Source of the DNA: Daejeonella sp.
GTDB taxonomy: Bacteria > Bacteroidota > Bacteroidia > Sphingobacteriales > Sphingobacteriaceae
Length of the DNA: 64,000 bases
Reading direction: 5' to 3'
NCBI RefSeq assembly: GCF_030695525.1
Contig: NZ_JAUYSS010000021.1
Span: 1 to 64,000 of the forward strand
The notes beneath the pieces were generated by a model. It had not been told where the DNA came from. It ran no database searches and worked only from the letters and a program-made list of their open reading frames with translations. Below are positions 61,204 to 64,000 of the stretch, piece by piece (position 1 is the first letter of the stretch; the number at the start of each line of letters is the position of its first letter). The translations under genes and the position numbers were made by a program.

Positions 61204-61559
61204 ATCATTTATTGTATTGTATCGGGATCAGTCTGCTTTCAAGATATTCAAGTATAGAAGCAATTTAATTATTATGTTGGCTAAAACAATACCCCTTGAA
61301 AGGCTTATTGGAGAGTGAAGCGCATAAAATATTAACTGTTATGGAGTGAAAGGAATGTTAAAAAATCAATTAGTATTGACAGACTGTATCCATAATCCTT
61401 TAAAATAAATTTGACCTAATCCACATTGTATTTTGTGACAAGAGGCTGCAATGACAAACCAGCATTAAAAAATTGTAATATTATCCCCCCACTATTGCAG
61501 ATTTCAGTATTTTTTTCGTTTTTTTGTAAAAAATTTCGATACCACTTATACTATTAACA
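61204..61559. other. Spacer between divergent permease and arginine genes
   Basis: AT-rich, about 355 bases. TTGACA at 61376-61381 and TAAATTTG at 61406-61413 are promoter-like pieces facing the arginine genes, though their spacing fits neither known pattern well. A T-rich run (61510-61526) precedes the leader reading frame. No gene seen. Confidence 0.4.
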
Positions 61560-61694
61560 ATGAATAGTTTAAACTACCAGGCCAATACAGGATCATTAAC
61601 CCAAACGGGTTACATGAGGGGTATTGTTTGTAGTAAATTCAGGCCTGAGAAGTTAGTGTTGCGTTTCCGACGACCCTTTATGCCGCGGACTTGA
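61560..61694 (+). CDS. Candidate arginine leader peptide (attenuator)
   Basis: A 44-codon frame (ATG 61560, TGA 61692-61694) with an internal ATG at 61614 that would give 26 residues. The N-terminus is ordinary (MNSLNYQANTGSL) but the C-terminal part is Arg-rich: MRGIVCSKFRPEKLVLRFR, RPFMPRT. Six of the last 26 codons are for Arg (AGG, AGG, CGT, CGA, CGA, CGG), with CGA-CGA in tandem at 61668-61673. A hairpin (ATGCC 61680-61684 with GGCAT 61700-61704) spans its stop codon, and terminator-like structures follow before the arginine genes. The AACAATG start context is typical of this phylum. Confidence 0.5.
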   Translation: MNSLNYQANTGSLTQTGYMRGIVCSKFRPEKLVLRFRRPFMPRT

Positions 61695-61717
61695 ATCTTG
61701 GCATTAAACCCCTTAAA

Positions 61718-61735
61718 CCGGAGCATTCCATCCGG
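61718..61735 (+). promoter_or_regulatory. Leader hairpin with alternative partners
   Basis: CCGGA (61718-61722), eight-base loop, TCCGG (61731-61735). The second arm, as ATCCGG (61730-61735), is also a perfect complement of CCGGAT at 61803-61808, just before a run of seven T. The two pairings exclude one another, as in attenuator switches. Confidence 0.4.
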
Positions 61736-61764
61736 CTGATCAATCAATGATATTATTCACAAAA

Positions 61765-61814
61765 GGAAAGACTAAAAACGTAGTCTTTTTTCCGATTCAA
61801 AACCGGATTTTTTT
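61765..61814 (+). terminator. Tandem terminator-like structures before the arginine genes
   Basis: AAAGACTA (61767-61774), loop AAAACG, TAGTCTTT (61781-61788) running into T and CC, and then CCGGAT (61803-61808) followed by seven T (61808-61814). They end 12 bases before the ATG of the GNAT gene, so they sit within the leader and not after a gene: attenuation is the natural reading. Confidence 0.6.
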
Positions 61815-61825
61815 CTTCAAAATAC

Positions 61826-62551
61826 ATGAAAGAAAACGAGTTTGTTGTTATCCCGGCAACAGAACAACATATTGAATACGCAACACAGATCTGCGATGAG
61901 ATGGCAGAGTCTGCCAAAGCCAGAGGAACAGGAATAGCCAGACGCACCCCTGAGTATATCACGTCAAAAATGCTGGAAGGCAAAGCAGTGATTGCGCTTC
62001 ACAAGGATGGTACCTGGGCCGGTTTCTGTTACATCGAAACCTGGAGTCATGGCACGTTTGTGGCCAATTCAGGTCTTATCGTGAATCCGGGTTACCGTAA
62101 TCGCGGACTTGCACGCTTGATCAAGCGCGCAGTCTTTGACCTTTCCCGCAAAAAATATCCGGAGGCTAAGATCTTTGGACTGACTACCGGATTAGCCGTG
62201 ATGAAAATTAATTCTGAGCTCGGCTACGAACCTGTAACCTACTCAGAACTAACTCAGGATGAGGATTTCTGGAAAGGATGTCAGAGTTGTGTGAACTATG
62301 ATATCCTGAAAAGCAAAGACCGTAAAAATTGTATGTGTACAGCAATGCTTTGGGATCCGGAAGAAAAGGCTAAAGAGATCGAACGCAAAATGAAAGAAGA
62401 AGACGATCGTTTAAAAATTGAGGCTGAGGAGCGTTTGAGTAAGGTTGCCCGCAAACAAACCCTGTTCGAACGTCTTGAAGAAAAATTACGCAATTCATTG
62501 AAAATGATTGCTGCACTAGGTGCATTATTCGTTAAACTTTTACAAAATTAA
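61826..62551 (+). CDS. GNAT N-acetyltransferase of the arginine operon
   Basis: A 241-residue acyltransferase. The GNAT fold is in residues 1-140: VIPATEQHIEYATQICDEMA, IALHKDGTWAGFCYIETW and GLIVNPGYRNRGLARLIKRA, the acyl-CoA pyrophosphate loop. After it comes a Cys-rich segment with KGCQSCVNYD and KNCMCTAMLWDPE, followed by a charged helical tail and a hydrophobic C-terminus. Being directly before argG (zero-base gap) and argC, it probably makes the N-acyl-glutamate that begins arginine synthesis; members of this phylum are known to use N-succinylated intermediates, so the acyl donor may be succinyl-CoA. This is inferred. Confidence 0.8.
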   Translation: MKENEFVVIPATEQHIEYATQICDEMAESAKARGTGIARRTPEYITSKMLEGKAVIALHKDGTWAGFCYIETWSHGTFVANSGLIVNPGYRNRGLARLIKRAVFDLSRKKYPEAKIFGLTTGLAVMKINSELGYEPVTYSELTQDEDFWKGCQSCVNYDILKSKDRKNCMCTAMLWDPEEKAKEIERKMKEEDDRLKIEAEERLSKVARKQTLFERLEEKLRNSLKMIAALGALFVKLLQN

Positions 62552-63745
62552 ATGATGAAGAAGAAGGTTGTTTTAGCATTCAGCGGAGGTTTGGACACTT
62601 CCTTTTGCTGTATTTACTTAACCAAAGACCGTGATCTGGAAGTACATTCTGTGATTGTGAATACCGGTGGTTTTTCTGAGGAAGAGCTGAAGCAGATCGA
62701 GGAGCGTGCTTATGCCCTTGGGGTTACTTCCCATGCAGTTGTTGACGAAACTTTGAACTATTATGAAAGTTGTATCAAATACCTTATTTATGGTAATGTG
62801 CTTAAGAATGCAACTTACCCTCTTTCGGTAAGTGCTGAACGAGTAAGTCAGGCTACTGCAATAGCCAATTACGTCAAATTAATCGGTGCTGATTATGTAG
62901 CTCATGGAAGTACCGGAGCCGGGAATGATCAGGTGCGTTTTGACATGATCTTCAATATAATGATTCCCGGAGTGGAAATTATTACTCCAATCCGTGACCT
63001 GAAATTGAGCCGTGAGGCAGAAATTGAATATTTAAATAATCATGGTGTAGAATATACTGCCGAGAAAGCAAGATATTCAATCAATAAAGGTATTTGGGGT
63101 ACCTCAGTTGGGGGTAAAGAAACCCTGACTTCCAATGAGACTTTACCAGAAGAGGCATGGCCTACACAGGTTACTCAAACCGAGCCGCGTAAACTGGAAC
63201 TTGATTTTGAGCAGGGTGAGCTGATAGGAATTAATGGAGAAAGCTTATCACCGGTTAAAGCCATTCAGAAACTGCAGGAAATTGCACAGCCTTATGGCAT
63301 TGGTAGGGATATTCATGTTGGAGATACTATAATTGGTATCAAGGGTCGTGTTGGTTTTGAAGCTGCGGCACCGATGATCATCATCAAAGCTCACCATACT
63401 TTGGAGAAACATACTTTAACCAAATGGCAACTGAGCTGGAAAGACCAGTTGTCAAGTTTCTACGGCAACTGGCTTCACGAGGGGCAGTTTCACGATCCAA
63501 TCATGCGTAATATTGAAGCGTTTTTAAGCGATACACAGAAAACCGTGAGCGGAAAAGTATTTGTAAAACTTCATCCTTATCGTTTTGAGATCATCGGAAT
63601 TCAATCTGAGAATGATCTGATGTCAAACAAATTCGGAAGCTATGGTGAGATGAATAACTCATGGTCGGGAGAGGATGTAAAAGGCTTTTCAAAAATATTT
63701 GGAAACCAGACCATGATCTGGCATAGGGTACACGATAAAAAGTAA
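62552..63745 (+). CDS. argG: Argininosuccinate synthase
   Basis: Joins citrulline and aspartate using ATP to make argininosuccinate. The PP-loop is VVLAFSGGLDTSFCCIYL; later AERVSQATAIANYVKLIGAD, AHGSTGAGNDQVRFDM (ATP and aspartate site), YSINKGIWGTS and VGDTIIGIKGRVGFEAA fit the family. About 397 residues, the normal size. There are two ATG codons at the start (62552, 62555), and the first touches the stop of the GNAT gene, so the two are translationally coupled. argC follows after four bases. Confidence 0.97.
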   Translation: MMKKKVVLAFSGGLDTSFCCIYLTKDRDLEVHSVIVNTGGFSEEELKQIEERAYALGVTSHAVVDETLNYYESCIKYLIYGNVLKNATYPLSVSAERVSQATAIANYVKLIGADYVAHGSTGAGNDQVRFDMIFNIMIPGVEIITPIRDLKLSREAEIEYLNNHGVEYTAEKARYSINKGIWGTSVGGKETLTSNETLPEEAWPTQVTQTEPRKLELDFEQGELIGINGESLSPVKAIQKLQEIAQPYGIGRDIHVGDTIIGIKGRVGFEAAAPMIIIKAHHTLEKHTLTKWQLSWKDQLSSFYGNWLHEGQFHDPIMRNIEAFLSDTQKTVSGKVFVKLHPYRFEIIGIQSENDLMSNKFGSYGEMNNSWSGEDVKGFSKIFGNQTMIWHRVHDKK

Positions 63746-63749
63746 AACA

Positions 63750-64000
63750 ATGGGAACTATCAGAATAGGAATCGCAGGTGGAGCAGGATATACTGGTGGA
63801 GAATTGCTCAGGATACTGATCAACCATCCTCAGGCAGAAATATGTTGGGTTCATAGCAACAGCAATGCGGGCAAATCGCTTTCTGATGTGCATGCTGATC
63901 TTTTTGGTGACACTAATCTGAAGTTTACAGATACCATTTCCCAGGATATTGATGCGCTTTTTTTATGCGTAGGTCATGGTGATGCCAAAAAGTTTCTGGA
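63750..64000 (+). CDS. argC: N-acetyl-gamma-glutamyl-phosphate reductase (3' end outside window)
   Basis: NADPH-dependent reductase of the third step of arginine synthesis. The visible 83 residues hold the N-terminal Rossmann motif RIGIAGGAGYTGGELLRILI, then NHPQAEICWVHSNSNAGKSL and ALFLCVGHGDAKKF, the typical second strand region with the catalytic loop not yet reached. It starts four bases after argG. In this lineage the acyl group may be succinyl instead of acetyl, so the exact substrate is inferred. Confidence 0.95.
   Translation, partial: MGTIRIGIAGGAGYTGGELLRILINHPQAEICWVHSNSNAGKSLSDVHADLFGDTNLKFTDTISQDIDALFLCVGHGDAKKFL

Follow-up and report, generated by a model that had tools for sequence, protein, structure and literature searches.

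A conserved arginine-codon leader and candidate attenuator before the arginine operon of Daejeonella and related Bacteroidota

Upstream of the arginine operon of a Daejeonella sp., within a window of 64,000 nucleotides (the whole stretch of DNA analysed), lies a 44-codon ORF that ends in arginine codons and is followed by terminator-like hairpins (Table 1). Judged from its sequence, this ORF is very probably an arginine-codon-sensing leader, and the element as a whole probably works by ribosome-mediated attenuation in response to charged arginine tRNA; transcription termination is somewhat favoured as its output in Daejeonella. Comparison of sequences establishes the conserved leader, its codon choice, the terminator-like hairpins and the operon behind them, in genomes in which no ArgR was found. 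Ribosome stalling, transcription termination and the sign of the response are each what we infer, and the switch between folds is predicted by computation for a part of the sequences. Arginine attenuation had been proposed in a preliminary description of the region. It gains support here from an operon that makes arginine and from the comparison with relatives which that description had suggested, where the reading frame, the arginine codons and the terminator hairpins were all found conserved.

Table 1. Features of the leader region and the arginine operon (alignment counts from 14 of the 16 Daejeonella sequences, L016 and L017 left out)
Feature	Positions	Strand	Basis
Candidate Bacteroidota-type promoter: TTG 61495-61497, 21 nt, TTTTTTTG 61519-61526	61495-61526	+	Predicted from sequence
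Leader peptide ORF, 44 codons	61560-61694	+	ATG 61560, TGA 61692-61694; read directly; kept in relatives
Tandem CGA CGA, Arg codons 37-38, proposed stall site	61668-61673	+	CGACGA in 14/14 Daejeonella and 43/43 Sphingobacterium-and-allies alignment rows
Hairpin P1, ATGCC 61680-61684 / GGCAT 61700-61704, stop codon in loop	61680-61704	+	97.1% of cells paired, 14 Daejeonella rows
Candidate antiterminator, 5' half, CGG..TTGAATC over last Arg codon and stop codon	61686-61697	+	Predicted to pair with 61794-61800 and 61803-61805; folds
Hairpin P2, CCGGA 61718-61722 / TCCGG 61731-61735	61718-61735	+	81.2% of cells paired; two pairs changed on both sides
Terminator-like hairpin T1, AAAGACTA 61767-61774 / TAGTCTTT 61781-61788, then T run	61767-61788	+	95.7% of cells paired; one pair changed on both sides
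Terminator-like hairpin T2, TCCG 61791-61794 / CGGA 61804-61807, seven T 61808-61814	61791-61814	+	Invariant in 14/14 rows
Candidate antiterminator, 3' half, GATTCAA..CCG, T2 loop and 3' arm	61794-61805	+	Folds
GNAT acetyltransferase, first structural gene of arginine operon	61826-62551	+	PF00583
argG, argininosuccinate synthase	62552-63745	+	TIGR00032 278.8 bits (cut-off 268.2); PF20979, PF00764
argC, start only inside window	63750-63998	+	Named by eye from translation

The genes behind the leader bear out the GNAT-argG-argC order of the preliminary description. Whereas argG was assigned by TIGR00032 and Pfam, the other operon genes were named by eye from translations of L193, whose ORFs past argC, outside the window, comprise a 143-aa ORF, argD, an argF-like gene, argB, proC, argE, a second GNAT gene and argH. 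GNAT was detected in 40 of 60 relatives, in 17 of 20 genomes of the genus and in 238 of 261 of the family; that of Daejeonella locus L042 is 97% identical. The 143-aa ORF (L193:1136-1567), which sits inside the operon between argC and argD, was taken by eye to be presumably a four-helix-bundle protein of the sort known from rRNA intervening sequences. A divergent amino-acid permease gene (PF13520; 59812-61203, minus strand) flanks the leader.

On direct reading, the 44-codon frame lies exactly where it had been placed, translates to MNSLNYQANTGSLTQTGYMRGIVCSKFRPEKLVLRFRRPFMPRT followed by the stop, with LRFRRPFMPRT as its C-terminal residues, and stops 131 nt before the GNAT ATG at 61826. The tandem CGA codons, which begin 24 nt 5' of the stop codon, and the last arginine codon, CGG at 61686-61688, were likewise exact in position. 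A 26-codon version from an internal ATG, offered as an alternative, was abandoned; its Met19 (61614) is Leu in L003 and L009 and Val in L005. A second leader copy in the same genome was also considered and rejected: the CGACGACCNNNNATGCC pattern had one exact site, and with up to two mismatches 23 sites, against 70 for the reversed control. Pfam gave no family for the leader at E ≤ 0.001, in a search where short proteins score poorly. Bacteroidota-type promoters include a -33 box, and from the candidate promoter transcription is expected to start near 61533. Its -7 box is an imperfect match to TAnnTTTG, the form given in the accessible part of PMC9723704.

Leader starts were picked by hand in some long frames (e.g. 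L022 and L027), and the '-type' clade names used below are based partly on how closely leaders resemble those of named loci. A length of 44 codons is shared by 14 of 16 Daejeonella, 32 of 33 Sphingobacterium-type, 12 of 12 Pedobacter-type and 8 of 9 Parapedobacter-type sequences; in 17 of 19 Mucilaginibacter-type sequences the leader has 41 codons. Length is thus fixed by clade despite freely varying N-terminal residues, and about 36 residues have been made when the tandem CGA is reached. Median dN/dS of the leader lies between 0.24 and 0.56 in five clades, as under coding selection, with third positions the most variable in the N-terminal part; this part is free to change, while the tail is constant inside each clade. 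Tails differ between clades, all with Arg: RRPFMPRT, RRPILPRA, TSRQNFTPRI, SRRRPYMPRV, SRTLRHRA, KTFRNVFRA, PFLVRR and PRPRRGC. A leader with an Arg-Pro tail was present at 69 of another 71 loci in the family, a set that overlaps in part with the named loci; L146 and L162 lacked an Arg-ended leader by the rule given next.

For chance controls, a leader was defined as an ORF of at least 12 codons with at least two (or at least three) Arg among its last 12, within 300 nt upstream of the gene. Of 120 GNAT upstream regions, in which a few loci occur twice via two collections, 109 had an ORF with at least two Arg and 81 one with at least three, where dinucleotide shuffles gave expectations of 20 and 4.5, respectively. 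No leader passed the rule in L035, L038, L074, L088, L092, L102, L107, L108, L111, L118 and L119, although L092 and L111 do show an Arg-ended leader that starts just beyond the 300 nt. Real sequence served as a second control: at least three Arg were found in 43 of 76 GNAT upstreams but in only 2 of 93 other intergenic upstreams of the same loci and the window, and at least two in 66 of 76 and 11 of 93. The Arg-ended leader before GNAT is real and not a product of chance.

Its codon choice is equally marked. CGA, which is decoded weakly via inosine, makes up 309 of 588 tail arginine codons (52.6%), compared with 61 of 837 (7.3%) in the GNAT genes of L042-L121; in the long ORFs of the window it accounts for 49 of 627.

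ArgR (PF01316) was sought in 60 relatives, the genome of the window (98.24% complete) included, and matched in none, while the same model matched 9 of 14 named genomes used as a positive control, one of them a Bacteroides. In a class sample of 159 evenly drawn genomes, PF01316 matched 8, of which 7 exceeded the cut-off. GNAT was present in 59 of the 159; 42 of these had a leader with at least two Arg (11.1 expected), 34 one with at least three (2.9 expected), and 17 neither. When only the 55 GNAT genomes lacking an ArgR match were counted, the numbers were 41 (9.3 expected) and 34 (2.2 expected). ArgR and GNAT occurred together in the remaining four (G292, G332, G365 and G396), in each of which argR lies directly 5' of GNAT on the same strand, its frame ending no more than about 75 nt from the GNAT start, and so occupies the position where others carry the leader. 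None of the four has an ORF with at least three Arg, which says little by itself because only 0.7 would be expected by chance. As the leader and its structured RNA are kept in many relatives that lack ArgR, it is probably the ribosome itself that senses arginine shortage.

Between the leader tail and GNAT, the RNA of Daejeonella can form four hairpins (Table 1). The stop-codon hairpin ATGCC/GGCAT, CCGGA/TCCGG, the terminator-like stem T1, and CCGGAT with its seven T had all been located correctly in the preliminary description. The last of these (61803-61808) overlaps the 3' arm of T2 and leads into the T run; the local 5' arm of T2, TCCG at 61791-61794, whose CGGA partner directly precedes the seven T, is an addition to that description. 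No covariation was seen for P1 in the 14 Daejeonella rows; P1 is nearly invariant there and T2 invariant, so neither can covary. Related genera also carry T1 and T2, with compensatory base changes. The T1 equivalent of L019 is AAAGGCTA/TAGCCTTT, a compensated change, and the fourth stem pair of T2 is A-U in L007 and L151, C-G in L019 and L031, and U-A in L014, L023 and L145. A 27-row alignment, whose 3' half was misaligned, was kept out of the counts. In single-sequence duplex tests, the stop hairpin of Daejeonella reached p ≤ 0.05 in 3 of 16 sequences and pairing of the stop region with downstream sequence in none of 16.

A hairpin followed by a T run was found in all 16 Daejeonella sequences, with 0.4 expected from mononucleotide shuffles. 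L028, a locus of the same genus checked separately from this set, has the leader but neither a terminator-like hairpin nor GGTC, so that the count becomes 16 of 17 with it included. Elsewhere, such hairpins were present in 7 of 13 T2-type relatives (0.6 expected), 4 of 5 g16/g43 (0.2) and 3 of 6 Cyclobacterium-type sequences (0.2), as well as in 7 of 33 Sphingobacterium-type (2.1), 2 of 9 Parapedobacter-type (0.6), 2 of 19 Mucilaginibacter-type (0.4) and 2 of 6 Flavobacterium-type sequences (0.5). Two further groups had them in 2 of 9 sequences each (0.3 and 0.4). None was seen in 11 Pedobacter-type sequences or in the 9 of one Chitinophagaceae-type group.

Partition functions were computed for 15 Daejeonella sequences in three ribosome states: untranslated, ribosome on the first CGA, and ribosome at the stop codon. 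L009, L133 and L152, which lack the T2 search pattern, stayed outside these folds and inside the terminator tally. Mean T2 probability was 0.65, 0.24 and 0.64 in the three states, respectively, and that of the candidate antiterminator, in which the stop-codon region pairs with the loop and 3' arm of T2, was 0.03, 0.71 and 0.00. With the ribosome on the first CGA, the antiterminator was at or above 0.72 in 11 of 15 sequences and T2 was lost in 11 of 15. The complete switch, in which T2 reaches 0.4 or more both in the untranslated state and with the ribosome at the stop and disappears on stalling, was predicted for 7 of 15; among the exceptions, L003, L004 and L011 had low T2 at the stop, L016 had low T2 when untranslated, and L007, L015, L017 and L025 kept T2. 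In these computed folds the means thus follow the logic of classical attenuation, unevenly from sequence to sequence.

The outcome depended on where the ribosome edge was set, T2 falling below 0.1 in 8-11 of 15 sequences at +12 to +18 but in 4 of 15 at +20, and T2 was also lost in 19% of trials with a shuffled 39-nt leader segment. The switching sequences are mostly close relatives of one another, and of 11 sequences from related genera 10 gave antiterminator probabilities below 0.1. By alignment, 89.8% of antiterminator cells were paired against 88.9% in column shuffles, 86 of 500 of which reached the real value. L025, where stop UAA and loop UUUAA replace UGA and UUCAA, is suggestive for the pairing, and L009, with UGA and a UUAA loop, counts against it; T1 is left untouched by it. 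Two other pairings were considered. That of the TCCGG arm with CCGGAT, put forward in the preliminary description, did appear in the fold of L002 with the ribosome at the stop, but the stop-codon region is the better candidate partner; it displaces T2 in 11 of 15 folds with a ribosome on the first CGA. In Daejeonella, RNAalifold paired the 3' arm of T2 with a TCCG that lies 5' of the first CGA; this pairing consists of four invariant pairs, which are evidence neither way, and was not adopted. The exact antiterminator is the weakest step of the attenuation model, and the fold computations make the stop-codon region a tentative choice, one that may well prove wrong.

Under the attenuation model, RNA polymerase would transcribe the 44-codon leader with a ribosome trailing it. 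When charged Arg-tRNA is ample, the ribosome would clear the slow CGA CGA, reach the stop codon and cover its surroundings; T2, together with T1, would then form just ahead of GNAT, ending transcription of GNAT-argG-argC-...-argH early. When it is scarce, the ribosome would halt on CGA CGA and cover the 5' arm of P1, leaving the stop-codon region to pair with the T2 loop and 3' arm; T2 would not form and the operon would be transcribed. If the leader is not translated, P1 would form and the terminator remain on.

A different arrangement was found in Sphingobacterium and allies, for which 43 of 47 g17 (Sphingobacterium-type), g4 (Parapedobacter-type) and g16/g43 sequences were aligned (L125, L126, L138 and L141 left out). 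The stop hairpin, a downstream hairpin and the pairing between the loop of the latter and the last Arg codon with its next codon were together 89.8% paired, compared with 82.7% in shuffles (0 of 500 reached the real value) and 30-49% in slid controls. Changes on both sides affected 69 cells, where shuffles gave 23 and none of 500 reached the real value; pair-count and type-count measures were reached by 16 and 26 of 500 shuffles. In this group the equivalent of P1 covaries, as do the loop pairing and the pairing of the stall codons with the GNAT 5' region described next. In addition, the stall codons with the following Pro, CGACGACCY, are complementary to RGGTCG 13-25 nt 5' of the GNAT ATG. 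A GGTC no more than 40 nt from the start of GNAT is present in 33 of 33 g17, 9 of 9 g4 and 4 of 5 g16/g43 sequences, where mononucleotide shuffles gave expected fractions of 0.075-0.125. In the Pro codon, the third (silent) base forms a Watson-Crick pair in 41 of 46 sequences (T-A 24, C-G 17), T-G in 3 and a mismatch in 2 (L018, without the motif, was outside this count), which 0 of 10,000 shuffles reached, the shuffles retaining relatedness. Duplex tests between the Arg codons and the GNAT 5' region reached p ≤ 0.05 in 21 of 33 g17, 2 of 9 g4 and 0 of 5 g16 sequences; in the Sphingobacterium-type, the stop hairpin did so in 22 of 33 and the stop region with downstream sequence in 9 of 33. Such single-sequence tests gave clear results mainly in this clade; in most clades their outcome was weak or negative. 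From these patterns, the RNA of Sphingobacterium and allies probably places a different output, on translation, behind the same sensor. Were Daejeonella to work likewise, a stalled ribosome would release the GNAT initiation region from long-range pairing; this is unlikely there, as GGTC near the GNAT start was found in 0 of 16 sequences and not in L028 either, the duplex test was positive in 0 of 16, and hairpins with T runs are carried by nearly the whole genus set. Pairing of the Arg codons with the GNAT 5' region was therefore rejected for Daejeonella.

Tight hairpins around the leader stop were noted by eye in other clades. In L026, L029, L033 and L034, the stop lies in a hairpin of the GACGC-TGAT-GCGTC type, and GCGTA, which follows the stop, is complementary to the TACGC-like loop of the next hairpin; the duplex test between stop region and downstream sequence was positive in 0 of 9 for this group. 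Chitinophagaceae-type loci with PRPRRGC-like ends (L103, L106, L109, L110, L111, L113, L117, L120 and L121) share, again by eye, a stem from the stop codon, CTGATAGG/CCTATCAG, which in L117 is CTGACAGG/CCTGTCAG, a compensated change.

Stalling might instead be caused by the nascent peptide, with the RRPxxPR(A/T/V) tail acting through the exit tunnel and sensing free arginine or a pathway product, for which the fungal arginine attenuator peptide and SpeFL are precedents. Leader length is fixed, Pro follows the tandem Arg, and over the last 11 codons synonymous differences outnumber nonsynonymous ones by 53 to 6 in Sphingobacterium-type and 50 to 11 in Pedobacter-type pairs; however, this excess is slight or absent in Daejeonella (31 vs 22), Parapedobacter-type (27 vs 22) and Mucilaginibacter-type pairs (95 vs 104), RNA pairing explains part of the Sphingobacterium pattern, and tails differ among clades, which share only the Arg codons, strongly CGA. 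Peptide arrest in place of codon sensing is accordingly quite unlikely. Control through Rho, or through leader translation with no intrinsic-terminator switch, draws on the Pedobacter-type and Chitinophagaceae-type clades that lack terminator-like hairpins, some clades therefore having to use another output, and on Salmonella speF, where the accessible text of PMC6386406 joins Rho with Arg codons. For Daejeonella it is very unlikely, given the hairpins with T runs in 16 of 17 sequences. That the ORF is a chance frame or encodes a small functional protein is extremely improbable: short ORFs are common and Pfam offers no family, but both the shuffled and the real-sequence controls speak against it, as do third-position-biased change at fixed length and an N-terminus that varies freely while the tail and downstream RNA are kept.

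More broadly, and at about even chances, the attenuation model may extend to an old, widespread family of arginine leaders that replaces ArgR in many Bacteroidota. The codon sensor, Arg codons (mostly CGA) close to the end of an ORF whose length is set by clade, would have been kept and the RNA output swapped between clades. Daejeonella would use a terminator switch; Sphingobacterium and allies would use a compact fold that joins the stop-codon loop to the loop of a downstream hairpin and lets the stall codons pair with the initiation region of GNAT. That leaders hold to 44 codons and that the RRPxxPR tail is conserved suggests that the nascent chain might also participate. If this is true, it would explain how arginine synthesis is controlled without ArgR in a large group of environmental bacteria and add an arginine-synthesis member to attenuation, the same place in the operon being taken by either a repressor gene or a leader. 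It would also provide a natural series of different RNA outputs driven by one codon sensor.

Among the matches listed from the open-access literature, by titles and openings of abstracts, none described, for Bacteroidota, a leader peptide for arginine upstream of argG. Bacteroid-trp is a trp leader. This RNA (RF01692) is listed for Bacteroidetes in the accessible part of PMC2864571; the element described here differs, as Rfam 15 gave no match in the window at the gathering score, Bacteroid-trp included, and the five hits in 61400-61900 were all far below it. For F. psychrophilum, the available portion of PMC9723704 reports hints that leader peptides attenuate amino-acid operons, and these cases may include arginine. 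Of the experimentally studied systems encountered, the Salmonella speF leader, orf34 (SpeFL), comes closest. According to the available text of PMC6386406, it has two consecutive Arg codons at which the ribosome pauses in low arginine and hairpins at and after the stop codon, and it controls a downstream gene; tandem Arg codons, stop-codon and later hairpins and a gene behind them are thus common to both. SpeFL, as described there, differs in that it controls ornithine decarboxylase, has its Arg at codons 12-13 and acts via Rho, RNase G and the speF RBS, whereas here the operon makes arginine and the terminators are of intrinsic type. The leader had no match to the SpeFL family (DUF2618, PF10940) in Pfam at E ≤ 0.001, with the same caveat for short proteins.

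The fungal arginine attenuator peptide, compared by description, is likewise an arginine-responsive leader peptide before an arginine gene, but it is eukaryotic and acts by peptide-mediated arrest. ArgR control of arg genes concerns the same pathway and signal and uses a protein repressor, for which 60 of 60 relatives here gave no match. The classical attenuators of amino-acid biosynthesis are of the trp, his, leu and ilv type. Here the amino acid is arginine, the leader is fixed at 44 codons with a partly conserved tail, and the antiterminator is a candidate; a proven alternative fold is the one classical sequence feature that sets them apart from the present element. In the others, a short leader ORF ending in codons for the product of the operon behind it, a hairpin at its stop codon and a terminator-like hairpin before the first gene, the element would work like a classical attenuator.
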